Of a stretch of 40,860 bases of DNA, positions 16,797 through 31,662 are shown in pieces. Made by a program: the position numbers and the translations under genes. Origin of the DNA: an uncultured Selenomonadales bacterium (GTDB lineage Bacteria > Bacillota > Negativicutes > Acidaminococcales > Acidaminococcaceae); contig ONAV01000008.1 of assembly GCA_900315925.1 (NCBI GenBank), forward strand, positions 1-40,860. Reading direction: 5' to 3'. Position 1 is the first letter of the stretch, and each line of letters opens with the position of its first letter. The notes beneath the pieces are model-generated. The model made no database searches. It was not told the DNA's origin and saw only the letters and a list, made by a program, of their open reading frames with translations.

Positions 16797-16830
16797 AAAA
16801 CTCCGGACAGCTTCCGCGGTCCGGAGTTTT
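16797..16830. terminator. Bidirectional terminator between convergent genes
   Basis: AAAACTCCGGAC and GTCCGGAGTTTT form a 12-bp stem with a 10-base loop. It has T-rich tails on both strands and serves the ABC operon and the permease-GGDEF gene. Confidence 0.9.
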
Positions 16831-16930: not shown

Positions 16931-19180
16931 TCACGCCCTCGTCTTCGCGCCCATGGCTTTTAACTGCATCTTGCGTTTATACATCAGGGCATCGGCCCGT
17001 TCAAAGACGTCATGTACATTTTTGTCCTGTCCCGGCACAAAATCGGTAAGACCCACGGATACGACCACTTTTCCTTCTACTTTTACGTTTGCCTCTACCT
17101 GCCGGTTAAAAGCCTCCACACAATCATGGCGTCCTTCAAAACCCTGGTTCTCCAAAATCGCTACGAACTCGTCGCCGCCGGTACGGAACACCGGACTGTG
17201 TTTAAAGTTCTCACAAATCAACTTACTGGCAGCGCAGATGTATTCGTCCCCCGCCTTGTGCCCGTAGGTGTCGTTGATATGTTTCAGTCCGTTCACGTCG
17301 CAGACCAGCATGGCAAATTGCTTTATGGCTCCGGACCCGATCAGCTCGTCCAGCCGGCTCACCTCATCCACATACGCCTGCTTGCTCTTTACACCGGTCA
17401 TGGCATCCCGATAGGCCAGCTTCTGAACATGGCCCAGCTCGGCCTCTGTTTCCTCCGTTCTCCGCTGCACGATGGCATAATTGGTGAAAAACATGCCCAG
17501 AGAGAACATGATCAGTATCAGGACAACCGAATTTTTGCGGGACCCTCGGACGACGTAATCCTGCTTTTTTGAATTCATGAAATCTTCTTCTCCCATTTCA
17601 TAGGCGGCCGCATTGGCCTCGCCCCTGTAGAAACCGCGGATCTCCGACATGGTTTTTTCTGCAAAGTCCTGGTCCGACTGCCGCATCCAGCTCATGGACA
17701 TAAACACGATAATCGCCATCAGGGCAACCCAGGCCACCACAGAACGTCCGAAGACCTTGGCATAGTCGCGGTGCAGTACATTGCGCAGGAACAGAAAACC
17801 GCACACGGACCAGATAGTGATCAGGAAATAAGTCTCTGTTGCCAGCTGTTCAAAGTTGTTCAGTTCCGGGAAAAGCTGTAACAGGGCAAATACGGCCATG
17901 ATTGCCACGCCCACAAAACCTGTGCAGTGCTCCGTCCGGTCTCCCCGTTCCCCTGCCAGCTTATAGGCTGCAGCAGAAATCAGACCATACACAATGATGG
18001 CGGAAATGGTCAGCACGTCAACGATCCAGCCTACGGCGGTGCGGCCCAGCAGCGGAATCGGCAGCGACAGCAGCAGGACCAATTCCACGGCCCGCTCCGG
18101 ATTCCTGCGCTGGTTCAGTTCCGCAAACCGTTCAGGCAGGATGTCGTCCTTGGCTACACTGTAGAACAGACGGCTCAGCGCCACCGTGTTGCCGATGAGG
18201 CTGGTCATTACCAGAGAAAACAGCGCCGCCGCCAACAGGAACATGCCTGTATCTCCCAGATAATAATGGGCTGCGTAAAAGGCCGGCAGCACTTTTAAAC
18301 CGCCCCCCTGATCTGCCAGACGGTTAATATAATCCGGCCAACCGGTATACTGGGACGGGATTGCTGAAATGGAAAGCAGGATCACAAAAATGTACAGCAG
18401 CGTGGTGGTCACAACGGATACGGTTAATACGTTAAAGGTCTTCTTATGACTGAACTTGAATTCCCGGGCGGAATGAGAGATATTCTCAAAACCGATGAAA
18501 GCCCATGGCGCGATCAGCGCGATACCGGTCACCTGGGATAACGCGCTTTTACCGGAAATAAAGCCGGGGGTGAAAGGAAACGCAACCGCATCCCGATGCA
18601 GCATGGCCACGGCAAAACATACGGCTATGCAGACGGTAAAGGTCAGCGCCAGCACTTTCATAAGGTTTACGGCAATCCGCTCCCGCTTCATACACAAAAG
18701 TCCCATGAACAAAATGGCGGCCATGGTCAGCAGCACTTCGCCCAAATACACTTCGTAATCAAAAACGGTGTACATGTAGCCGAAACGGAATGTATCGCCC
18801 AGGAAATTACGGGCAAACAGCGGCAAGGAAGTCGCATTGGCCCACAGCATGGCCAGATAGGCCAGGCCCACATACCAGAAACTCAGGAAAGCCCGGTCAT
18901 AGCCGAATATCTTTTTTACATACCCGTACACACCGCCGGCGGAAGGATAATAGTTAATCAGGTAATGATAATTCCGGCTGATAAACAGCATAATGACCAT
19001 GCCCACCAACATGCCCAGCGCGCTTCCCAGCGGCCCCGCTTCCGACAGGTACAGGTTCGTGGTAAATACAAAGGAGCCCCATCCGATGGCAGTGCCCACT
19101 GACAACGCCCAGGCGCCCAGTGGCGTAAGATACGGTACCAGACCTTCTTCCCGCTCTTTGACTGAACCAAACTCTTCCAT
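16931..19180 (-). CDS. Amino-acid-permease-like protein fused to GGDEF domain
   Basis: A 749-residue fusion. ATG 19180 has GGAGG 8 bases upstream. The frame is open to 19210. Residues 10 to about 475 form an APC-superfamily transporter: TM1 SVGTAIGWGSFVF, then PSAGGVYGYVKK, the TM6-like region APWAFIGFENISHSAREF, and VGWIVDVLTISAIIVYG. A further helix (about 480-498), a 52-residue loop predicted outside (499-550) and another helix (551-571) lead to a GGDEF domain: DAMTGVKSK near 592, CDVNGLKHINDTYGHKAGDE and GGDEF at 668-672. The active-site residues are intact, and no RxxD inhibitory site is seen at the expected place. It probably couples amino-acid binding to c-di-GMP synthesis. It lies downstream of the paralogous kinase fusion on the same strand. 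Confidence 0.92.
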   Translation of the reverse strand: MEEFGSVKEREEGLVPYLTPLGAWALSVGTAIGWGSFVFTTNLYLSEAGPLGSALGMLVGMVIMLFISRNYHYLINYYPSAGGVYGYVKKIFGYDRAFLSFWYVGLAYLAMLWANATSLPLFARNFLGDTFRFGYMYTVFDYEVYLGEVLLTMAAILFMGLLCMKRERIAVNLMKVLALTFTVCIAVCFAVAMLHRDAVAFPFTPGFISGKSALSQVTGIALIAPWAFIGFENISHSAREFKFSHKKTFNVLTVSVVTTTLLYIFVILLSISAIPSQYTGWPDYINRLADQGGGLKVLPAFYAAHYYLGDTGMFLLAAALFSLVMTSLIGNTVALSRLFYSVAKDDILPERFAELNQRRNPERAVELVLLLSLPIPLLGRTAVGWIVDVLTISAIIVYGLISAAAYKLAGERGDRTEHCTGFVGVAIMAVFALLQLFPELNNFEQLATETYFLITIWSVCGFLFLRNVLHRDYAKVFGRSVVAWVALMAIIVFMSMSWMRQSDQDFAEKTMSEIRGFYRGEANAAAYEMGEEDFMNSKKQDYVVRGSRKNSVVLILIMFSLGMFFTNYAIVQRRTEETEAELGHVQKLAYRDAMTGVKSKQAYVDEVSRLDELIGSGAIKQFAMLVCDVNGLKHINDTYGHKAGDEYICAASKLICENFKHSPVFRTGGDEFVAILENQGFEGRHDCVEAFNRQVEANVKVEGKVVVSVGLTDFVPGQDKNVHDVFERADALMYKRKMQLKAMGAKTRA

Positions 19181-19242
19181 AATAGAGACCTCCACCGTGC
19201 CGCGGAACATTGCGGCATATATTATTTCAGCATATGTTTACA

Positions 19243-19270
19243 GAAACACTGATTAATCAGCGTCTCCTTA
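19243..19270. repeat. Palindromic remnant of the MITE-like repeat
   Basis: On the minus strand this reads TAAGGAGACGCTGATTAA and runs straight into TCAGTGTTTCT. It is the two terminal inverted repeats of the 29879-30044 element joined with no interior. It lies three bases beyond the kinase-fusion stop codon, in the 92-base gap before the GGDEF-fusion gene. Confidence 0.65.
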
Positions 19271-19272
19271 TA

Positions 19273-22188
19273 TTATTTTAGACACTCGCGCAACGTGGCC
19301 ACCATATCCGGAATATTGATAGGCTTGGCGATGTGCCCGTTCATACCCACGTCCAATACATGCTGGATATCCTCTGCAAAAGCATTCGCCGTCATTGCGA
19401 TAATGGGGATCCGGGACAGTTCCGGATCCGGCAGGGCACGGATCGCTTTCGTAGACTCGTACCCGTTCATCACCGGCATCTGGATATCCATCAGCACGCC
19501 GTCGTAATACCCGGGAGCAGACGCTGCCACTTTATCCAGGCCGATCTTACCGTCTTCCGCCGTTTCCACCTTGAATCCCAGTTCCATCAAAATCATCTGG
19601 GCAATTTCCCGGTTGATCACATTATCCTCTACCAGCAGCATCCGCTTATTTCTGAAGTCCGCCTGCTGTTTGACAACTTTGCTTCTCTCGTCGGTTTCGG
19701 CTTCCGGTTCCTCTGCCGCCAGGGGGAATCCCACCCGGATGATGAACTCCGTACCTTTCCCCTGCTCTGTTTCCACTGCAATGGTACCGCCCATCAGGTT
19801 TACAAGGCTCTTGGTGATGGCCATGCCCAGACCTGTGCCCTGTATGTTGTCCACCGCGGTCGTGCGTTCCCGTTCATACGCTTCAAACACTCTGGCTGCA
19901 AACTCCCTGCTCATGCCCATGCCGGTATCCTTCACCCGCAGTTCGTAGAACCCAGTTTTGGCATCGACGCCGGTTTGGCGCAGCGTAACGGAAATGTTGC
20001 CGCCCTGAGGGGTAAACTTGTAGGCGTTGCTGATCAGGTTCAGCAGAATACGGTTCAGGCGGCTTACGTCGCACATCACCGTTTTGTTCGTAATATCCAC
20101 CGCTGAAACGGTATAATGCAGTCCTTTTGTTTCCATCTGGGTCAGAAACATGTCGTGCACTTCGTTCATGGTCTTCACCAGATTGGTCTTTTTCGGCTCC
20201 AAGTCAATCTTTCCGCTTTCAATGCGGCTCATATCCAGTACGTCATTGATCAGCGCCAGGAGGTGCTGACTGGATGTTTCAATCTTGGTCAGGTACTCCG
20301 CCGTTTTCGGCGACAGGTTATCCTCTTTGCGGGCCAGCATTGTGTAGCCGATGATGGCATTCATGGGCGTGCGGATATCGTGGCTCATATTGGAAAGGAA
20401 CGTGCTCTTGGCCTGTGTGCTCCGCTCGGCCTCCAGTTTCTTCCATTCTGTCTCACGTTCCCGGTCCAGTATGAGACGGAAAACCATGAACAGGATCAGC
20501 ATCACGATGAGCGTCATGAAGAAAAACAACACCATGTTCCGGTTCAGTGTAGCAATCAGATCGACCCTTATTTCATTCGAAAAGAAATCGCGGTATTCCT
20601 GCCACTGCTGGAAATCCATGACAACACCGAAAGAACGCAGCTTGGTCGTATTGAAGAGATTGATGGTTTCCATGGCGTGTTCCGCCGCAATCTGGAACTC
20701 CTGCCGTACCCAGATGGTAGACGCGATGGTAATCAGGGATACCAGCCACAGCCAAACCTGCGTTGCTTTGCCCAGCCGCGCTTCCCTGTCGTTTCGCAGC
20801 AGGACCAGGAACAGCAGGGACCCCAGCACGGACCATAGAACGAACATCAGATAGGATTCCACGGACAGGGAATCGTCAAACAGGTATACGCTGAACAGGA
20901 TTGCTACTACCATACCTGTCAGGCCGGTTATCTTATACGTCAGACTGTTTTCTCTTTTTGCGCAAAGGTACGCCGTGTAACAAGTATACCCGTAAACAAT
21001 GGTAGCGCCGATGGTGGTCACGTCTACGATCCAGGCCACGGCCGTACGGCCAAAGAACGGAATCAGGCAGGAAAGCGCCATAATAAACAGGACCGCATTC
21101 CGGGGAACACCGTTACCGTTCAGTCTGCCAAACCAGCGGGGCAGCATCCGATCCTCCGCCATGGAGTACAGCAGACGGCTGGCCGCCACACAGTTGCCAA
21201 GAATACCGGTAAAGATAGCGCCCAGTACCGTAACGCCGATCAGCAGCAACCCGGATTCACCCAGAAGAGATTGGACCGCAAAAAAGGTCGGCAAACTTTT
21301 CATTCCAAACATAGATTTCAGATTGATAACATAGGCATACCAGGTCGTGTGGGCAAGCTCCGGCAGCACAGAAGCCGCCAAAATGGTAGTCATGATATAG
21401 GCCAGCGCTGCAGTAATAACTGCAGCCACCAACACAGACAGTGTCTTTTTCACCGGGAAACGGAATTCCGCCGCAGAATGGGACACCGATTCAAACCCCA
21501 CAAAGGCCCAGGGCGCCAGCGCAATAATTTCCAATGTGCCCGCCAGCGGCGAATTTTTAGGTGAAAAGGCCGGTTCAAAATGCCCCAGATTGCCGCCATA
21601 GCGTGACATGGCGGCTCCAAAACCGATACAGACGCCCGCAAAGAGGATCACGGCCATGATGATCTGCACCCGTTCCGTCAATTTACCGCCGCCCAGGCAG
21701 ACCAGCCCCATCAAGGCCAGGGCTGCCATCGACAACAACACCTCTCCGAAATACACGTCGTAACCTGCAACGGTGTAGTGAAAACCAAACTGCAGGGCAC
21801 CCTGCAGCAATCGACGGCCCAGCAACGCCAGTGCCGTGGCATTGGCCCAGATGATGGAAACATAGGTCAACATCAGGAACCAGGCGCTGAGAAAACCGTG
21901 GTCATAGCCCAGTTCTTTTTTTGTATAGGTAAAAGCGCCCCCGGCGTCCGGATAACGCTGCATCATATAATAGTAATTAACGCCAATCAGGATCATGATC
22001 GCAGCACCAATGAGCATAGCCAGTACTGTACCCAGCGGTCCCGCCTCGGGCAGGAACAAATTGCCTGGCATGACGAAAGCGCCCCACCCCACCGCACAGC
22101 CGAAGGCCAACGCCCAGGCGCCCAGCGGGGACAAATACCGATTCAGTCCGACCTGGTTCTTTGGTTGATTTGCTTCCCTTGCTGTCAT
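19273..22188 (-). CDS. Amino-acid-permease-like protein fused to hybrid histidine kinase
   Basis: A 971-residue fusion. ATG 22188 has GAGGAG 8 bases upstream. Residues 15 to about 470 form an APC-type transporter closely similar to the GGDEF fusion (FGCAVGWGAFVMPGN, RYPDAGGAFTYTKKELGYD, APWAFVGFESVSHSAAEF). A helix (475-493), a 57-residue outside loop and a helix (552-573) follow, then a short linker. The kinase has the H-box SHDIRTPMNAI (His603), N-box NLISNAYKFTP, and G-boxes DTGMGM and GTGLGMAI. A receiver domain (about 849-971) has LLVEDNVINRE, acceptor VLMDIQMP (Asp901), AMTAN and AKPIN. All catalytic residues are present. It is a likely membrane amino-acid sensor starting a phosphorelay. 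No HPt protein is encoded nearby. Confidence 0.93.
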   Translation of the reverse strand: MTAREANQPKNQVGLNRYLSPLGAWALAFGCAVGWGAFVMPGNLFLPEAGPLGTVLAMLIGAAIMILIGVNYYYMMQRYPDAGGAFTYTKKELGYDHGFLSAWFLMLTYVSIIWANATALALLGRRLLQGALQFGFHYTVAGYDVYFGEVLLSMAALALMGLVCLGGGKLTERVQIIMAVILFAGVCIGFGAAMSRYGGNLGHFEPAFSPKNSPLAGTLEIIALAPWAFVGFESVSHSAAEFRFPVKKTLSVLVAAVITAALAYIMTTILAASVLPELAHTTWYAYVINLKSMFGMKSLPTFFAVQSLLGESGLLLIGVTVLGAIFTGILGNCVAASRLLYSMAEDRMLPRWFGRLNGNGVPRNAVLFIMALSCLIPFFGRTAVAWIVDVTTIGATIVYGYTCYTAYLCAKRENSLTYKITGLTGMVVAILFSVYLFDDSLSVESYLMFVLWSVLGSLLFLVLLRNDREARLGKATQVWLWLVSLITIASTIWVRQEFQIAAEHAMETINLFNTTKLRSFGVVMDFQQWQEYRDFFSNEIRVDLIATLNRNMVLFFFMTLIVMLILFMVFRLILDRERETEWKKLEAERSTQAKSTFLSNMSHDIRTPMNAIIGYTMLARKEDNLSPKTAEYLTKIETSSQHLLALINDVLDMSRIESGKIDLEPKKTNLVKTMNEVHDMFLTQMETKGLHYTVSAVDITNKTVMCDVSRLNRILLNLISNAYKFTPQGGNISVTLRQTGVDAKTGFYELRVKDTGMGMSREFAARVFEAYERERTTAVDNIQGTGLGMAITKSLVNLMGGTIAVETEQGKGTEFIIRVGFPLAAEEPEAETDERSKVVKQQADFRNKRMLLVEDNVINREIAQMILMELGFKVETAEDGKIGLDKVAASAPGYYDGVLMDIQMPVMNGYESTKAIRALPDPELSRIPIIAMTANAFAEDIQHVLDVGMNGHIAKPINIPDMVATLRECLK

Positions 22189-22269
22189 TTTGCAGACTCC
22201 TCTTTTCACCCGCGCTGCATTGCGGAATACAGGCACGGCATTTAAAAATGTAGCGGTTTTTTTAATTGT

Positions 22270-22290
22270 ATTTAATCAGCGTCTCCTTAA
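22270..22290 (-). repeat. Solo end of the MITE-like repeat
   Basis: Read on the minus strand, the 21 bases starting TTAAGGAGACGCTGATTAA match the left terminus of the element at 29879. The copy lies in the 125-base gap between two kinase genes. No second end is found nearby. Confidence 0.65.
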
Positions 22291-22313
22291 ACGCGTTACA
22301 CGTATTGTCCGTA

Positions 22314-25208
22314 TTATTGTATCAGGCTCTCTAACGTGGAGAATAACGCGTCAGCTTCCACCGGTTTGCTGAGGTGGGCGTTGAGCCCCGCCTGCAGGCT
22401 TCGCTGAACATCTTCGTCAAAAGCATTGGCCGTCAAGGCGATAATGGGGATCGTTTTCGCGTCCTCCCGGTCCATTCCACGAATGACGTGGGTCGCCTCC
22501 AGTCCGTCCATTTCCGGCATCCGCATATCCATGAGGATCGCATCATAATACCCCGGTTCGTGACCTGCAAACTTATCCACGGCAATCTTTCCGTTTTCCG
22601 CCACGTCCGCTTCAATCTCCCGCATCTGAAGAACCATGACCATGATTTCCGCATTGACGGCCACGTCTTCCGCCAGCAGGACACGGCGACCGCGGAGGTC
22701 CGCCTTTTGATTCTGCATGACCGCGCGTTTCTTCTGGAGCGCGTTCCGGAATTCATCCAGCACCGTAGCCGCAAACAGCGGCTTGGGCACAAACGTGTCC
22801 ACACCGGCGTGAGCCGCTTCATCGGCAATATCGTACCAGTTGTAGGAAGTCAGGATAATGATGGTAGCATCCTCGCCAATGATGGAACGAATTTGCCGGG
22901 TGGTTTCCACCCCGTCCATTTCCGGCATCTTCCAATCTACCAGAATCAGGTTATAGGGTTCCCGGCGAGCGCGGCGCACCCGCACCATCTCCACCCCTTC
23001 CCTGCCGGACAGCGCTGTTTCGCAGTTAATACCAACCTGCCCCATTACTACTTTTGCGTGTTCGCAGGCAACGGGATCGTCGTCGATAACAAGCACGCGC
23101 ATATCCTGTGGCTGCAGGTGTTCCGTTTCTTTCTCCTCTGCTTTACGGCTCGAATCAGCCAGTGTAACGGTTACGGTGAACGTGGTACCCCTGCCCTTTT
23201 CACTTTCCACTTCAATATTACCGTTCATCAGCTTCACCAGGCTTTTGGTAATAGACATGCCCAATCCTGTACTGCCGTACTTGTTTGTAGACGAGGAATC
23301 CTCCTGGCTGAACGCGTCAAAAATTTTCGGCAGGTATTCTTTGCTCATGCCGATGCCTGTATCGCTGATGATAAAACGCAATGTGGAGTTTCCTTCAAAC
23401 CGCGCCACATTCTGTACAAGGAAGCGCACCTTTCCGCCCGCAGGCGTGAACTTCACCGCATTACCCAGAATATTGATCAGCACCTGCCGCAATTTCATAT
23501 CGTCGCCGATGTAATAATCATTGACATTTCCTATGATGCGGCATTCGTAATTCAGCCCCTTGTCCCGGCACTGGCCGCTGATCATGGTGTTGACCTGTTC
23601 CAGGGTCTGGGTGAAGTAAAACTCCTCCTGCCGGATCATCATGCGCCCCGACTCGATGCGGGACATATCCAGGATATCGTTGATAATACTCAGCAGATGA
23701 TGGGCGGACGCGCTGATCTTTTCCAGCGACTCCCTGGTCTTCGGGGAAAGATCCGGATTGTTCAGGGCAATATTGTCCAGGCCGATGATGGCGTTCATGG
23801 GCGTACGGATCTCGTGGCTCATGCTGGAAAGGAACGCCGTTTTAGCCCGGTTCGCCTGTTCCGCTGTAGCCAGCGCGTCATTCAGCGTCTGGGCGGTTTC
23901 CATATTCTTCCGGGTTTCCGCATCCACATCGGTAAAGCAGAGGCCCACCGCATGTACGATGTGGTCGTCCCGGTCTTCCGGATGGCGTACGCCGGCAATC
24001 TTGGTCATCTCATAGGTTTCCTTCCCGTTCCGGCTCACCATATACCGGAACGCAATGACCCTCTCCTCTTTCAGTGCTTCCCGGATCGCGTCCGGACAGG
24101 TAAAGCGCAGGAACTCCTCCCGGTAGGACTCTGTCACATATTTATTGGCATACTCGGTCACGGTGGCAAGGTACGCGAAACGTTCCCCCACCTTAAGGCC
24201 GTCTTTGATATCGGCATGGTCCTGGTAACAGACCCCTTCGTCTTTGTCAAGTTCGATATAATAGACGCTCCAGTAGTCGGAGGACAGCGCCGTAATCAGC
24301 TTATCCTGCCGTTCCCGCAGCAATTGCTGAGCCTGGAGCTGTTGCTGCAGCGCCTGCCAGTCCCGCACGTCTTCATCTACGTCCCTGAAACCCAGCACGA
24401 CCCCGATTCTGCCGTCAGGCATATTCGCCCGGGCCACTTCAATCCGGTAATAACGATGGCTGCCGTCCTTCATCAACCGCTGATAGCTGATGCTGAAATG
24501 GGGCCGTTCCTTCAGGCGGCTCAGGATCCGGTCCCGGGACAGTTCCGCCCGCAGGCGTTCCTGATCTTCCGGAACAACGGTATGGCGAATATAATACTCC
24601 CTGATTTCGGCATAATCCGCCAAACCCGTTCCGTTTAATTCCGGCTTGTCAGGGACAAGGATGCCTTCCTCATTGCGGATATAACGTTCATAATCATCCG
24701 ATTCCGGATCCTTGAGCAGCCAAAGGGCACGGTAGGATTCACTGAGGGCGTCGATGAGCGCCTGCTGGATGATCTTATCGGATTCCATCCGTTCGTGCTT
24801 TTCCGTAATATCGGAAATGAAAACGTAGTAAATTCCGCCGTAGGCTTCCGTATCCGTATAATGACCGTAGTCATCCACCCAGCGCACGGCGCCGTCCCTG
24901 CGGATGATGCGGTATTCCACATAATCCATAAATTCTTCGTTTTCCTGGACCTGACGCTGGATGGTTTCGGATACAGTATCATAATCATCCGGGTGCAGCA
25001 TGCCTTTGAATGTATAACCTGTAAGTTCTTTGAACTCTTCCAGGTTTTTACAGCCGAAAATATTCAGGACAGCGCGATTAGCATACAACAGCTCTTCCGG
25101 CATCTCCTTTTTATAAATAAAAAAGCCGCCGGGCATATGCCTTCCTATTTCTTCGACGATATGCATCGTTTCTTCATTCAGCTGGAAGCGTTTTCCGAAC
25201 ATTCCCAT
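22314..25208 (-). CDS. Soluble PAS hybrid histidine kinase with two receivers
   Basis: A 964-residue cytoplasmic protein without membrane segments. ATG 25208 has GGAGG 7 bases upstream. Three PAS-like domains occupy roughly residues 15-140 (with YVEYRIIRRDGAVRWVDD), 150-285 and 300-430. The kinase core has SHEIRTPMNAI (His465), ILGNAVKFTP, DTGIGM and STGLGMSI. Two receivers follow: the first with VIDDDP, acceptor Asp758 in ILVDWKMP, and KPL; the second with LLAEDVAVN, Asp894 in ILMDMRMP, and SKPVE. Both acceptors are intact. It heads a same-strand run with the two permease fusions (gaps of 125 and 92 bases), which suggests a shared operon and a shared relay. The output protein is not in the window. 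Confidence 0.93.
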   Translation of the reverse strand: MGMFGKRFQLNEETMHIVEEIGRHMPGGFFIYKKEMPEELLYANRAVLNIFGCKNLEEFKELTGYTFKGMLHPDDYDTVSETIQRQVQENEEFMDYVEYRIIRRDGAVRWVDDYGHYTDTEAYGGIYYVFISDITEKHERMESDKIIQQALIDALSESYRALWLLKDPESDDYERYIRNEEGILVPDKPELNGTGLADYAEIREYYIRHTVVPEDQERLRAELSRDRILSRLKERPHFSISYQRLMKDGSHRYYRIEVARANMPDGRIGVVLGFRDVDEDVRDWQALQQQLQAQQLLRERQDKLITALSSDYWSVYYIELDKDEGVCYQDHADIKDGLKVGERFAYLATVTEYANKYVTESYREEFLRFTCPDAIREALKEERVIAFRYMVSRNGKETYEMTKIAGVRHPEDRDDHIVHAVGLCFTDVDAETRKNMETAQTLNDALATAEQANRAKTAFLSSMSHEIRTPMNAIIGLDNIALNNPDLSPKTRESLEKISASAHHLLSIINDILDMSRIESGRMMIRQEEFYFTQTLEQVNTMISGQCRDKGLNYECRIIGNVNDYYIGDDMKLRQVLINILGNAVKFTPAGGKVRFLVQNVARFEGNSTLRFIISDTGIGMSKEYLPKIFDAFSQEDSSSTNKYGSTGLGMSITKSLVKLMNGNIEVESEKGRGTTFTVTVTLADSSRKAEEKETEHLQPQDMRVLVIDDDPVACEHAKVVMGQVGINCETALSGREGVEMVRVRRARREPYNLILVDWKMPEMDGVETTRQIRSIIGEDATIIILTSYNWYDIADEAAHAGVDTFVPKPLFAATVLDEFRNALQKKRAVMQNQKADLRGRRVLLAEDVAVNAEIMVMVLQMREIEADVAENGKIAVDKFAGHEPGYYDAILMDMRMPEMDGLEATHVIRGMDREDAKTIPIIALTANAFDEDVQRSLQAGLNAHLSKPVEADALFSTLESLIQ

Positions 25209-25388: not shown

Positions 25389-25421
25389 AAAATAAAAAAT
25401 CCGGGCGATGATGCCCGGATT
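25389..25421 (-). terminator. Terminator after topB
   Basis: AATCCGGGC and GCCCGGATT form a 9-bp stem with a 6-base loop followed on the minus strand by TTTTTATTTTT. It separates topB from the kinase operon. The rest of 25209-25506 holds only the promoter above. Confidence 0.9.
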
Positions 25422-25506
25422 CTGATTCAATTAATATGTATCCTAAATCTTAAGCTAAGGAGAAAATGACGGTTCATTCGCAGGTACCCCGCTGAGGCTT
25501 TTGCGA

Positions 25507-27933
25507 TTATAATTTCGGTCTGCCTTTGCTGTCTTTATAAATCGTCCGGCACTGGGGACAAGACCAGAAGAAACCATACCGTCCTTTCTTCTTTTCCAGA
25601 ACCGCGTTGTCTTGCGGACAATGCTCGATCACCGGGTTCCCTTCTCTATCCACAGCATAGAATACAGTCTTTTTCGTAAGCGGTGACACACAGGTTTTAT
25701 CGTCACAAACGTAAAAATACTGTTTTGTCTTTGGAGAGTAATGGCGATTCAGGGTTTCTTTCCCGCAGACAGGGCAGGTAAAGGTCTGCGCCGGCGTTTC
25801 CTCCTGCCGTTTCATAACCGGCTGCCCGTTTTTGTCAACATCATAGTAGACAGGCTTGCCCGTGGCCGGCGATACACAGGCCTGGTTATCGCAGACGAAG
25901 AATGCTTTTTTCGTTTTCCGGGAAAAATGCTTCACCAGATTCCCCGTTTTGCAGAGGGGACATTTTTCCATTATGTAACCGGGAAATTGATGCGCTTCCG
26001 CGTACGCGATGTTGCGGTCAATGGTATCGTAAACATCCTGCCTGAATTTTTTCACGGACCCTTCCCCTGCCGCAATCTCCGCCAGGGCAAATTCCATCTC
26101 CGCCGTAGTGTCCGGTTTCGTCAGCGTCACATCCACGTTGTCAATAAGCTGGAAGCCCAGTTCCGTCGGAACCAGTTCCTTTTTCACCTTTTCCATAAAC
26201 GGCATCTGGGTCTGCCTGTTTCCGCGGATGCCTTGTAATTCGGAAATGATGGTGTCGCGGGTGGCAGGCGTACCGATGCCCTTTACTTCCTTCAGTTTGT
26301 CCCGGTTGGGATTCTTCGGGTCCATGAAACGGTAGATGTTGGCCATGGCCGCCAGCAGCGTACCTTCCGTAAAGCGCTTGGGCGGTTTCGTTTCTTTTTC
26401 CAACAGATCCACCGCATCGGGCTTGCCCAGGTTTTCCCCTTTGCTCAGGTTGGGCAGGGACAGGTTTTCGTCTGCCTGCGTTTCCGCTTCTTCGTCCTGT
26501 GCATTGTCTTCCCCTGTTGCCTTTTTCCGTTTGCCGGCAGCAGATACGACAGCTTCTTCACCGGACGAAGCGGCTGTGGTGCGACCGGCTGACGTCGTTT
26601 TCCCCTGTCCTCCGAACACCGCTTTGAAGCCCGGTTTTAATATGACCTTGCCGCTTCCTTTGAACAGTTCGTCCGCCAGCATGATTTCAAAGGTAATGGT
26701 TTCAAACTCACAGGGCGGATAGAACTGCATTACATACCGCTCCGCGATCATAGTGTAGATTTTTTCTTCCGTTGCGCTTAACTGCATCGGGATTTCGCCT
26801 GTGGGAATGATGGCGTGATGGGCCGTCACCTTTTTATCGTTCCAGGCCCTGGAAAACAGAGACACGTCTGCCCCGGCCGCGCCTCTCACATTACGGGACG
26901 CCAGTCTGTCCAAAATACGTAACGCGTCTTTGTGCTGGGCCCGGGGAATGTAGTTGCAGTCCGAACGGGGATACGACACGTACTTTTTCTCATACAGAGA
27001 CTGCACCGTGGACAAAGCCTGCTTGGGGGAAATGCCGAAGCGCGCGTTGGCTTCCACCTGCAGCGTGTCCAGTGAATACGGCAGAGGCGGCGCCTCCGTT
27101 CCTTTTTTCCGCGTTACCTTCTGCACCATGCCATCGGCAGGCAGTACTTTTTCCCGTACTGCCTCCGCAACCTGTTTGTCCAGCAGTCGTCCTTCCTCGT
27201 CAAGGGCTGTTTTCTTTTCATCCGGCTGCCACAAAGCGGTGAAACGTATCCCCTCTTTTGTAAAAGCAGCTTTCAGTTCGTAATATTTGCGTACCTTAAA
27301 ACTTTGTATTTCCTTTTCCCGGTTGACCACCAGCGCCAGCGTCGGCACCTTCACACGCCCGATGTTCCAGACGGCGCCCGGGGAAAACCTGGACGCATTG
27401 GTCGTATAGCAGCGGGTCAGGTTGATGCCCACCAGCCAGTCCGCCTGCTGCCGCGCCAGTCCTGCCGCATACAGGTTTTCATATTTTGCGTTGTCTTCCA
27501 CGGTCTCAAAGGCCCGCTTCATGCTCACGTCGTCCTTGGCGTTGATAAGAAGACGCTGCACCTTTCCTTTGTAGTTGCAATAATGCAGAATTTCCTCAAT
27601 CAGCAGCTGCCCTTCCCGGTCCGGGTCGCCCGCATGGATGACCACGTCCGCTGTTTTCAGCAGGCCTGACACTACCTTGAACTGAGCGGCTGATTTGGTA
27701 ATCACATCGTGTTTCCAGACTTCCGGAAAAATCCGGTAATTCTTCCAATTGGCGTACCGTTTTTCATATTCCTCCGGCGTCGCCAGTTCCAACAGATGTC
27801 CTACCGCCCAGGAAACAATAGTGTCGTCCTTCCGGTAATACCCTGTACATTTTTTATAACCTCCGGACGGCCACAGGTAATCTGCTATGGCGTTAGCTAT
27901 GTCCGGTTTTTCTGCAATATAAAGTGTCTGCAT
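25507..27933 (-). CDS. topB: DNA topoisomerase III
   Basis: An 808-residue type IA topoisomerase that passes single strands and decatenates DNA. The Toprim domain is at the N-terminus (LYIAEKPDIANAIADYL, HAGDPDREGQLLIEEIL). The catalytic tyrosine is in KKYVSYPRSDCNY near residue 318, where the usual Thr after Arg is Ser. A low-complexity acidic and Ala/Thr-rich insert (roughly 430-480) interrupts the core, and RFTEGTLLAAM and GIGTPATRDTII follow. The C-terminus has three cysteine zinc-ribbon repeats beginning CPLCKTGN, CPVCGKE and CPQDN. ATG 27933 has an AGGA box. It lies 45 bases after the LytS-like kinase, on the same strand, and ends in a strong terminator. Domestic or mobile origin cannot be told. 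Confidence 0.93.
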   Translation of the reverse strand: MQTLYIAEKPDIANAIADYLWPSGGYKKCTGYYRKDDTIVSWAVGHLLELATPEEYEKRYANWKNYRIFPEVWKHDVITKSAAQFKVVSGLLKTADVVIHAGDPDREGQLLIEEILHYCNYKGKVQRLLINAKDDVSMKRAFETVEDNAKYENLYAAGLARQQADWLVGINLTRCYTTNASRFSPGAVWNIGRVKVPTLALVVNREKEIQSFKVRKYYELKAAFTKEGIRFTALWQPDEKKTALDEEGRLLDKQVAEAVREKVLPADGMVQKVTRKKGTEAPPLPYSLDTLQVEANARFGISPKQALSTVQSLYEKKYVSYPRSDCNYIPRAQHKDALRILDRLASRNVRGAAGADVSLFSRAWNDKKVTAHHAIIPTGEIPMQLSATEEKIYTMIAERYVMQFYPPCEFETITFEIMLADELFKGSGKVILKPGFKAVFGGQGKTTSAGRTTAASSGEEAVVSAAGKRKKATGEDNAQDEEAETQADENLSLPNLSKGENLGKPDAVDLLEKETKPPKRFTEGTLLAAMANIYRFMDPKNPNRDKLKEVKGIGTPATRDTIISELQGIRGNRQTQMPFMEKVKKELVPTELGFQLIDNVDVTLTKPDTTAEMEFALAEIAAGEGSVKKFRQDVYDTIDRNIAYAEAHQFPGYIMEKCPLCKTGNLVKHFSRKTKKAFFVCDNQACVSPATGKPVYYDVDKNGQPVMKRQEETPAQTFTCPVCGKETLNRHYSPKTKQYFYVCDDKTCVSPLTKKTVFYAVDREGNPVIEHCPQDNAVLEKKKGRYGFFWSCPQCRTIYKDSKGRPKL

Positions 27934-29878: not shown

Positions 29879-30044
29879 TTAAGGAGACGCTGATTAAATG
29901 AGTTTGTGCGATGACCGAGGGCTTTTTGCGACTGACAAGGAAATGACCCGAAGGCGCAGCCGTAGTTGCGTTGAGGGTCATTGACGCAGTCAGTCACAAA
30001 AAGCACCGGTCAGCGTGCAGACGAATTAATCAGCGTTTCCTTAA
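29879..30044. mobile_element. 166-bp MITE-like inverted-repeat element
   Basis: The ends are TTAAGGAGACGCTGATTAA and, inverted, TTAATCAGCGTTTCCTTAA, with one mismatch in 19. The interior is itself an imperfect palindrome (AATGACCC with GGGTCATT, CTTTTTGCGACTGAC with GTCAGTCACAAAAAG), so the whole unit can fold into one long hairpin. It has no coding capacity. Partial copies occur at 22270-22290 and 19243-19270. TTAA at both ends could be a target duplication. Confidence 0.8.
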
Positions 30045-30112: not shown

Positions 30113-30141
30113 TTGACGGTGATAGCGGATAGTAAGAAAAT
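30113..30141 (+). promoter_or_regulatory. Weak candidate promoter of the PAS-GGDEF gene
   Basis: TTGACG (30113-30118) is 17 bases from GAAAAT (30136-30141). The -10 is poor, and TATAAA two bases further would need a 22-base spacer. Confidence 0.3.
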
Positions 30142-30201
30142 ATAAAGCGAAAATGCAATATGATGAACATCGCATCACAACAATCATCCGGAGGTAAAAG
30201 A

Positions 30202-31662
30202 GTGCAGACAGAAAACAGCAATGCCGGGACTGAACGAAACGCCCTGTCAAATAAGAACATAACGACCAGAGAGTATGCCGACCTGCTGCAGGAGAACGAA
30301 CGGCTTCGAAAAGCCTGTAAAAAAGAACGGAGCAACGGCATTATTTATGCCCATATTGCCCATGCCCTTACCCGGGACTACACCGACTTATTCTACGTCA
30401 ATATGGACACGGATGAATATATCGAATACGTCACTGACGATGCGCGCGGTGTACTGGTCGAACGCAGGCGGGCTGCAGATTTTTTTGAAAGCTGCGGACG
30501 GGAGGCCAGGTTGTATGTGCATCCGGAGGATCAGGAAGCATTTGTGCACGCCATGAACCGGGATTTCCTCACTGAAGCGCTGGACCGGTCCGGGGTATTT
30601 GATATGACCTATCGCAGGATCAAGGACGGAAGGACGTTCTATGTGCAAATGAAGGTTTCCCGGATGAAAGACGATCCCCGCTTTATCGTTATAGCTGTTT
30701 CGGATATCGACGAGCTCGTGAAAAAGCGTCGCACAGAAGAACGGATAAGGGAGGAGCGCATGATTTACGCCCGTCTCCATGCCATCACGGGCAACTATAT
30801 TGTAATCTATGTTGTAGACCCGGATACCGATACCTACCGTGTATTCAGTTCAGTCACTGCGTATAAGGAAAACTCTTCGTTAGTAAGGAAAGGAAAGGAC
30901 TTTTTTGAGAAAGTCCGGGAAGTAGCCTGGCAATATTCCTACCCTGCAGACCTGAGTCGTTTTCTCGCAGTTTTCACCAAAGAAAACATTATGGCCGAGA
31001 TTGAACGCAGCGGCATCTTTACGCTGAGTTACCGCTACATGATGAAGGGCAAACCGATTCATGTCCAGATGAAGGCTGCGATGGTGGAAGAAAAAGAAGG
31101 TCCCCGCCTGATCGTCGGTCTCAATGATATTGATGTACAGGTCCGGCAGGAGAAGCTGATTGAAGAGCGCCTTGCAGAGGCGCAGGTTCAGGCCACTGTC
31201 GACGCTTTGACCGGTGTCAAGAACAAACATGCCTATCTGGAAGCAGAGTCACAGATGGACAGCCTGATTGCGGAGCACTGCGCACCGCTGTTTGCGATCG
31301 TGATGCTGGACATAAACGATTTGAAGAAGGTCAACGATACAGCCGGCCATCAGGCAGGAGACCAGTATCTTCGTGATGCCAGCAAAATTATCTGTGACAT
31401 TTTTAAACACAGTCCCGTGTTTCGCATTGGCGGCGACGAGTTTGCCGTAATCGCCCAGGGAACTGATTATGCCTGTCTCGAAGAAAGGCTTGGGAAAATG
31501 CAGGACCACAATGCACAGGCATTAGTATCCGGCGGTATCGTCATTGCCTGCGGAATGGCAAAATTCGAAAATGACACCTGCGTAGCCACGGTATTTGAAC
31601 GCGCCGATCATACCATGTACGAGAATAAGAGCAGACTGAAAGCGGAACGAAACGGTCAGTAA
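30202..31662 (+). CDS. Double-PAS diguanylate cyclase (GTG start)
   Basis: A 486-residue soluble protein. GTG 30202 has GGAGG 7 bases upstream and is preferred over ATG 30160. A short coiled coil (about 20-50) leads into two PAS-like domains that resemble each other (LFYVNMDTDEYIEYV in the first, VIYVVDPDTDTYRVFSSV in the second; both end with a VQMK...VGLNDID or VIAVSDID strand). The GGDEF domain has DALTGVKNKHAYLEAE, LDINDLKKVNDTAGHQAGD and FRIGGDEFAVIA. The catalytic residues are intact and no RxxD inhibitory site is present. It should make c-di-GMP in response to a ligand or partner bound by the PAS domains. Its GGDEF domain is close to that of the permease fusion (KHSPVFR before GGDEF). 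Confidence 0.9.
   Translation: MQTENSNAGTERNALSNKNITTREYADLLQENERLRKACKKERSNGIIYAHIAHALTRDYTDLFYVNMDTDEYIEYVTDDARGVLVERRRAADFFESCGREARLYVHPEDQEAFVHAMNRDFLTEALDRSGVFDMTYRRIKDGRTFYVQMKVSRMKDDPRFIVIAVSDIDELVKKRRTEERIREERMIYARLHAITGNYIVIYVVDPDTDTYRVFSSVTAYKENSSLVRKGKDFFEKVREVAWQYSYPADLSRFLAVFTKENIMAEIERSGIFTLSYRYMMKGKPIHVQMKAAMVEEKEGPRLIVGLNDIDVQVRQEKLIEERLAEAQVQATVDALTGVKNKHAYLEAESQMDSLIAEHCAPLFAIVMLDINDLKKVNDTAGHQAGDQYLRDASKIICDIFKHSPVFRIGGDEFAVIAQGTDYACLEERLGKMQDHNAQALVSGGIVIACGMAKFENDTCVATVFERADHTMYENKSRLKAERNGQ

Follow-up and report, generated by a model that had tools for sequence, protein, structure and literature searches.

Transporter domains fused to signalling outputs are known from a few bacterial receptors. 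In CbrA, a transporter-kinase called a transceptor, an SLC5 domain of 13 helices is followed by a cytoplasmic STAC bundle that acts as the coupler (PMC13022988), and Ks-Amt5 of Kuenenia is an ammonium sensor histidine kinase (PMC5764959). A transporter-diguanylate cyclase fusion with an Amt head has been solved as well (PDB 8qj3, 8qj4 and 8qpf); we know it from the entry names, no paper on it being found among open papers, and together with Ks-Amt5 it indicates that the Amt head, too, occurs with a kinase and with a GGDEF domain. Membrane sensor heads of the 5TMR type carry many exchangeable outputs, including kinase and GGDEF/EAL (PMC11109136). Here we describe three adjacent genes, termed S, K and G, in a stretch of 40,860 nucleotides from an uncultured Selenomonadales bacterium of the Acidaminococcaceae (contig ONAV01000008.1 of assembly GCA_900315925.1; hereafter the window). 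K and G each encode an APC-type permease fused to a signalling output, a histidine kinase with receiver in K and a diguanylate cyclase in G, while S encodes a soluble hybrid kinase.

Like CbrA and the SLC5/STAC kinases CrbS and RpuS, which serve nutrient sensing, K joins a transporter domain to a histidine kinase. Unlike in CbrA, the head of K and G is an APC permease, the coupler would be transmembrane helix (TM) 13, an outer segment and TM14, and the outputs of the family also include GGDEF, HD-GYP and EAL. Ks-Amt5 is likewise a transporter-kinase fusion, with an Amt head of which no match was found here, and the 5TMR-type heads differ from the 12-helix APC permease core of K and G. A search confined to open PubMed Central papers brought up none that treats APC permeases fused to GGDEF or to a kinase. 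Transporter-sensor fusions are already known from CbrA, Ks-Amt5 and the Amt-GGDEF protein, and what is new, as far as the open literature shows, is the APC head. SLC5 and APC share the LeuT fold.

With moderate confidence, we read S, K and G as one assortment of a kit in which permease and PAS heads would set the making and breaking of cyclic di-GMP (c-di-GMP), by way of transceptors, an HPt protein and receiver-EAL (REC-EAL) phosphodiesterases. The three genes and their domains, all on the minus strand, are as follows.

22314..25208, minus: S, soluble hybrid histidine kinase, 964 amino acids (PAS, probable PAS, unassigned region, HisKA, HATPase_c, REC, REC)
24855..25088, minus: S, PAS_3 (Pfam, 57.5 bits, cut-off 25.6)
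23646..23846, minus: S, HisKA (Pfam)
23160..23507, minus: S, HATPase_c (Pfam)
22332..22682, minus: S, second receiver, the higher-scoring of the two (Pfam)
19273..22188, minus: K, permease-histidine kinase-receiver, 971 amino acids (open reading frame, Pfam, alignment to G)
20881..22134, minus: K, APC permease core (Pfam, AA_permease 95.4 bits, AA_permease_2 83 bits)
20479..20763, minus: K, connector of TM13, outer segment (57 residues) and TM14 (hydropathy)
20212..20412, minus: K, HisKA (Pfam; H-box SHDIRTP)
19732..20070, minus: K, HATPase_c (Pfam)
19291..19638, minus: K, receiver (Pfam; phospho-acceptor motif DIQMP)
16931..19180, minus: G, permease-diguanylate cyclase, 749 amino acids (open reading frame, Pfam, alignment to K)
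17876..19126, minus: G, APC permease core, TM1 and TM6 broken in the model (Pfam, AA_permease_2 95.4 bits; AlphaFold2)
17471..17755, minus: G, connector of TM13, outer segment and TM14 (hydropathy, AlphaFold2)
16964..17416, minus: G, GGDEF domain, active-site motif intact, RxxD inhibitory site absent (Pfam, motif check)

The open reading frames, strands and coordinates given in a preliminary description of this DNA hold, as do its gaps of 125 bases between S and K and of 92 bases between K and G in the order S-K-G; the three genes start behind ribosome-binding-like sites (25208 for S, 22188 for K and 19180 for G). Pfam returned AA_permease_2/AA_permease and GGDEF for G, AA_permease/AA_permease_2, HisKA, HATPase_c and Response_reg for K, and PAS_3, HisKA, HATPase_c and two Response_reg for S, in agreement with the two receivers already described there. 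The three PAS domains claimed for S fared less well: one is clear (the PAS_3 match), the second is weak (PAS_4, 24.6 bits in the whole protein at a cut-off of 23.1, and 15.3 bits when scanned alone), and the third N-terminal region matched no Pfam family above cut-off. K and S both possess HisKA, HATPase_c and a receiver with its phospho-acceptor, as expected of hybrid kinases, and S has the H-box SHEIRTP and both receiver Asp motifs. A pattern search came back empty for the G2 box of S and the acidic pair of the K receiver, where STGLG and VED, respectively, are readable in the translations. The GGDEF domain of G scored 75 bits and carries the GGDEF motif of a diguanylate cyclase at residues 668-672.

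The membrane module shared by K and G

Both heads belong to the APC permeases, with AA_permease_2 scores of 95.4 bits in G and 83 in K (cut-off 27) and AA_permease scores of 81.3 and 95.4 bits (cut-off 24.6). In the Pfam scan, the membrane part matched only APC families at E 0.001, with no SLC5/SSF domain and no Amt/Rh family among the matches; STAC gave no match either, in a library not checked for a STAC model, and by hydropathy the connector is a pair of helices with a segment between them. K and G are homologous over their entire membrane parts, connector included (38.0% over 579 amino acids, E 3e-117). The common layout that had been proposed (permease, helix, outer loop, helix, output) could thus be aligned throughout, homologous connectors and all, and its outer segment measures 57 residues in both proteins by hydropathy.

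Hydropathy gives 12 helices for the core of G. In an AlphaFold2 model of G (mean pLDDT 86.4, pTM 0.75), TM1 and TM6 are predicted to be broken (helices 20-31/34-77 and 213-227/231-236), and residues 531-589 are predicted to form one unbroken helix that connects the outer segment, by way of TM14, with the linker preceding GGDEF. The arrangement of TM13, segment and TM14 recurs across the family, with a median gap of 49 residues in 78 c-di-GMP-type proteins and gaps of 13 to 57 residues in the kinase types measured. The family profile matches the Amt-GGDEF structure (PDB 8qj3, 8qj4, 8qpf) over its positions 531-731 (E 1e-12). In 76 aligned proteins, conservation was highest in TM1, TM3, TM6, TM8 and TM10 (means 0.75-0.86) and lowest in the outer segment (0.37), which points to the core as the ligand site and rules out the outer segment as a conserved one. 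The GGDEF motif is intact in 75 of these 76 proteins, and R and D stand at the places of the RxxD inhibitory site in none of them.

The closest solved heads by sequence are CAT4 and PDB 5oqt/6f34, which we take to be GkApcT; these and the other solved APC transporters lack a fused output. Where the family of K and G carries GWG in TM1, GAG is found in CAT4. We rejected GWG as a mark of the sensors: the unfused sister permeases also carry GWG or GFG, so that the motif marks a subfamily and not the fusion.

As a lead to the ligand, the neighbours of the nearest unfused permeases (480-532 amino acids) were inspected in four genomes. The neighbours of one pair are a sulfoacetaldehyde acetyltransferase (772 bits at a cut-off of 676) and an aminotransferase, those of a trio are an aminotransferase and an alanine dehydrogenase, and one set lies beside a methylmalonate-semialdehyde dehydrogenase-like gene (440.9 bits, under the cut-off of 448.5); in the fourth genome the neighbours, viewed by eye with no family search made, held nothing telling. 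These neighbours suggest, as a lead only, omega-amino acids such as taurine or beta-alanine as ligands of the sensors.

Outputs of the family and their history

A scan of one genome per species returned at least 547 stretches encoding relatives, unfused kin possibly included, and the best 80 of these, ranked by a G-led alignment, were taken as loci L034-L113 (L denotes loci, G genomes, with G000 for that of the window, and C contigs). Both this ranking and the search patterns, which contained GWG or PWAFIGF, lead to an under-representation of kinase types and to overstated motif conservation; further kinase types were taken from genomes of known family members. We examined 104 permease reading frames in 89 sources, a count that includes the duplicate loci L116 and L118 (identical to L034 and L036). 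The 101 frames that remain without the duplicates comprise 45 with GGDEF, 38 with GGDEF-REC-GGDEF-EAL (the long form), eight with a histidine kinase, three with HD-GYP (read from the sequences and Pfam-confirmed for one) and seven with none or truncated. The idea of one sensing module with differing outputs is thereby borne out, and it extends from kinase and GGDEF to HD-GYP and the long form.

By record title, the 80 loci belong to Bacillota (62), Actinomycetota (11), Spirochaetota (3), Pseudomonadota (2), Chloroflexota (1) and Thermodesulfobacteriota (1), and most come from ruminants (we take the set labels RUG, SIG and RUI to be rumen sets), some labels looking misbinned. Four loci titled Sutterella, Alphaproteobacteria, Chloroflexi and Desulfovibrio (L037, L068, L094 and L104) have permeases that group with those of gut Bacillota/Actinomycetota, a mismatch due to misbinning or transfer. 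A match at E 0.001 was obtained in 13 of 41 genomes, these being that of the window and 40 relatives; the matches are long and of high identity in four of the 14 genomes of the genus (G000, G002, G012 and G013) and, up to position 507 of 583, also in G039, while G021 has only broken pieces and the remaining ones are weak. At E 1e-40, 19 of 398 genomes of the phylum matched (at most three candidates scored per genome), and four of these have a permease that is fused by frame length (G000, G039, G399 and G284).

In the window's genome (2.56 Mb in 100 contigs, 88% complete), PF13520 is matched above cut-off three times, in each case by a fused protein: K, G and a third copy, X (contig C23, L005 6573-10985). 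X, 1453 amino acids when read from the second ATG, consists of permease, GGDEF, receiver, a GGDEF-like region that lacks the motif, EAL and a tail. G and X align at 45% over 751 amino acids, GGDEF included, which is closer than G and K. The genes upstream of X on the same strand resemble, as read by eye, those of homoserine kinase and homoserine dehydrogenase. A weak likeness links the tail of X to the third N-terminal region of S (17 residues, E 0.002; five proteins matched by both queries), and one common PAS-like domain is possible, on weak evidence, in the X tail (L005 6576-7004), S residues 297-445 and window positions 30136-31659.

In a tree of 102 rows, 86 group together (99, Shimodaira-Hasegawa-like approximate likelihood ratio test, SH-aLRT), 85 of them having c-di-GMP outputs and the remaining one being truncated. 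Outside this group lie the kinase types and, farther out, ordinary permeases (98). A second tree, of 52 rows, used closer unfused permeases as the outgroup and 29 hand-picked c-di-GMP rows, and left out L096_1855 with its long branch, which the 102-row tree kept. Here, 44 sensor-type permeases form one clade (100/100) against the unfused sisters. One exception to a clade of fused proteins is L180, which sits inside on a long branch with no fused output; this 551-amino-acid permease (L180 2073-3725, from the genome of L096) lies beside divergent kinase and receiver genes and is possibly a split form of the sensor. The c-di-GMP types again form one clade (100/100), which also contains the kinase-output L181, the other kinase types being basal. 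Holding the c-di-GMP rows together without L181 costs 0.30 log-likelihood units (p 0.35) and is not rejected, and holding the kinase types without L181 as one clade gave p 0.02, moderate evidence only; L181 is a possible switch back.

G groups with the c-di-GMP-type permeases of several phyla and K with the kinase types. On the sequence trees, the split between kinase and c-di-GMP types is older than the genus, and the exchange of outputs is real but ancient. On the simplest reading of these trees, the ancestor would have had a kinase output, GGDEF would have come in by one deep change and HD-GYP by two, and the long form would have been gained or lost several times.

Gene neighbourhoods and the proposed circuit

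Three loci (L042, L178 and L179), in three genomes, share the gene order HK-REC (HK, histidine kinase), REC-GGDEF-EAL, HPt, permease-HK-REC-REC, all three HPt domains scoring over the Pfam cut-off. On this evidence, the kinase branch probably also ends in c-di-GMP, where both outputs would converge, and the preliminary view that K and G serve two separate signalling currencies is probably wrong. The kinase-receiver-receiver part of the L042 permease protein is 55% identical to S over 522 amino acids, so S looks, judging from this alignment, like the same kinase body equipped with a PAS head. In the window's genome, the only HPt found over cut-off lies on contig C38 directly after a REC-GGDEF-EAL gene, a pair also present in L064, and another REC-GGDEF-EAL gene, on C18, has an S-like kinase as its neighbour. 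L064, L074 and L106 combine HPt and REC-EAL genes with GGDEF permeases in one gene run, and relatives of S share a gene run with GGDEF permeases in L035, L036, L058, L064, L074 and L110.

Linkage of the three genes in relatives, which the preliminary description had proposed to examine, is supported. G012 has S-K-G in identical order (S 90.6%, K 90% and G 93% identity), and in L096, from a distant genome, S (58.7% over 963 amino acids) and a kinase permease follow in the same order, with a divergent long-form permease (the PAS1-3 labels of this neighbourhood comparison denote pieces cut from S and not Pfam domains). G002 and G013 have G'-G-K, with G' broken in G002, beside a topoisomerase-like gene (a fragment in G013 C60); such a gene also flanks S-K-G in the window.

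Signalling genes were counted around the 75 of 80 loci that kept the permease in a non-overlapping gene set, genes being mechanical open reading frames of at least 100 amino acids. Within 4 kb of the permease, hybrid kinases accounted for 17 of 410 genes, compared with 1 of 194 farther out (p 0.008), and REC-EAL genes for 13 of 410, compared with 1 of 194 (p 0.03). By locus, 15 of the 75 have a hybrid kinase within this distance, 13 a REC-EAL gene and three an HPt; the HPt counts come from a local search and are lower bounds, the HPt of L042 having been missed first and found later. A separate REC-GGDEF-EAL gene directly adjoins eight of 28 short GGDEF permeases and none of 21 long ones (p 0.007), so that the long form looks like a fusion of these two neighbours. 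HPt directly adjoins one of the 28 short and two of the 21 long permeases.

From the architecture, homology, tree, recurring neighbours and catalytic motifs described above, we infer the following course for ligand binding, direction of regulation, phosphate flow and final target. K and G would be transceptor-like receptors with the APC-type permease core as the ligand-binding head. TM13, the outer segment and TM14 would carry the conformational state of the core into the cytoplasmic helix and then into the output dimer, formed by GGDEF in G and by the HisKA kinase in K. G would make c-di-GMP depending on the ligand, and phosphate from K and S would pass to the HPt on C38 and on to receiver-EAL phosphodiesterases, the candidate targets being the product of the REC-GGDEF-EAL gene beside that HPt and perhaps the receiver within X.

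Several observations weigh against this circuit. Beside S-K-G itself there is neither an HPt nor a REC-EAL gene, so that the link in the window's genome rests on relatives and on unlinked genes, and other HPt genes may be missing from an assembly that is 88% complete. The 20 EAL matches there offer many possible targets. No c-di-GMP gene lies near the kinase-type permeases in the viewed stretches of G039, G399 and G284, and a c-di-GMP riboswitch search gave no match, its controls being equally silent. G002 and G013 have no orthologue of S beside K and G, and in G007 an S-like kinase (65%) is present and a sensor permease absent, showing that such kinases are not confined to sensor-bearing genomes. 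HPt was not significantly enriched within 4 kb (3 of 410 against 0 of 194, p 0.31), hybrid kinases directly adjoin three of 28 short GGDEF permeases against none of 21 long ones (p 0.25), and 16 of the 28 short GGDEF permeases have no directly adjoining signalling gene on the same strand.

Four other explanations were considered. The absence of HPt and REC-EAL beside S-K-G fits a separate kinase branch, in which K and S would act on transcription through an unlinked response regulator and lie next to G owing to a shared ligand; receiver proteins do occur elsewhere in the window's genome, and the kinase-type permeases of G399 adjoin a CheB-like gene. However, HPt and REC-EAL stand directly upstream of kinase-type permeases in three genomes and in one gene run with GGDEF permeases in L064, L074 and L106, and we hold a separate branch to be unlikely. 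We give slightly more credit, still on the doubtful side, to the notion that K and G are working transporters whose fused domains only tune uptake or report flux. Their APC core looks complete, with the 12 helices of G and the broken TM1 and TM6 of its model, and CbrA of Pseudomonas has been reported to have both transport and kinase activity (PMC7096432, PMC13022988). On the other hand, that all three PF13520 permeases of the genome are fused hints at a sensor role, which is itself compatible with transport.

Chance neighbourhood of three signalling genes could be imagined in a genome so rich in them, with its 20 EAL matches and 21 places that match S, but it is improbable given the order S-K-G in G012, the S-K pair with a c-di-GMP permease in a distant genome and the enrichment of signalling genes within 4 kb. 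Least credible of all is a recent local duplication with output exchange in this lineage. K and G are adjacent, on the same strand and homologous along the entire membrane part, and to the preliminary description this looked like duplication with exchange of outputs; the exchange stands, as an ancient event, while the recent duplication was rejected. Holding the G and K of the genus together was worse by 163 log-likelihood units (p 1.4e-80, approximately unbiased test), the c-di-GMP types stand apart from K in both trees (99 and 100/100), and G is nearer to X than to K.

The transceptor, HPt and REC-EAL circuit remains our preferred account of S-K-G. Going further, we tentatively suggest, with distinctly lower confidence, that gut and rumen anaerobes possess a broad family of receptors with APC-permease heads, which reads omega-amino acids or sulfonates (taurine, beta-alanine), with interchangeable cyclase, phosphodiesterase and kinase outputs and a dedicated HPt/REC-EAL set that would form closed c-di-GMP circuits, permease and PAS heads being swapped on the same kinase body. 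The known bacterial transceptor heads are few (SLC5, Amt), and here a single APC-type head is combined with four different outputs, in loci that carry the labels Bacillota, Actinomycetota and Spirochaetota. Should the ligand bind in the permease core, the family would offer a natural set of chimeras for studying how the conformational cycle of a transporter becomes enzyme activity; a nutrient would then also be identified as an input to c-di-GMP signalling in anaerobes. To our knowledge, hardly any c-di-GMP inputs are known in such anaerobes.

Flanks and further observations

Two hairpins border the locus, and repeats lie in both of its gaps.

25396..25423, minus: terminator-like hairpin upstream of S, 11 pairs (terminator scan)
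16797..16830, minus: hairpin and T-run 3' of G, before a convergent ABC-transporter gene (folded 12-pair stem; no entry on this strand in the terminator scan)
19242..19270, minus: palindromic repeat in the K-G gap, not seen in the K-G gap of G012 (repeat search, comparison)
22272..22289, minus: copy of a dispersed repeat in the S-K gap (repeat search)

Given the hairpin before S and the T-run hairpin after G, S-K-G could be a single transcription unit, in a terminator scan that was overall near chance level (13 terminator-like sites against 8.7 expected). Promoter-like sites were at chance level (10 against 8.7 expected). On the coding strand, a weak terminator-like site falls within the K-G gap (19207-19190); 19301-19272 is promoter-like. 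An Rfam search within the locus gave no match, and a search of viral contigs gave no lead.

The site adjoining S-K-G is occupied by a topoisomerase III-like gene (window positions 25507-27933). After this gene, the loci of the genus (L036, L114, L115, L034 and the window) hold varying assortments: S-K-G, G'-G-K and S-G-REC-EAL-S'-REC-EAL. On contig C28 of G013 (L119, 18000-25000), S is followed by the first 253 residues of a broken K, with 97.6% DNA identity to the window over 3.9 kb; this piece could stem from transfer or from assembly contamination, G013 also holding another intact K at 74% identity and its contamination being given as 6%.

The CheB-like gene of G399 (L176 11422-12534), just under the model cut-off, lies directly upstream of two tandem permease-kinases. 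Elsewhere in the window's genome, which has its 20 EAL matches over cut-off in 2.56 Mb, contig C45 encodes a PilZ protein reading by eye like a glycosyltransferase (L182 1291-3210), beside a polysaccharide deacetylase-like gene; judged by its sequence, it is a possible c-di-GMP target.

The dispersed short repeat (TAAGGAGACGCTGATTAA-like) occurs in the window at 19253-19270, 22272-22289, 29880-29897 and 30026-30043, and in the genome in 62 copies at no more than one mismatch, some of them as inverted pairs. Window positions 29880-30043 resemble a small element with inverted ends.

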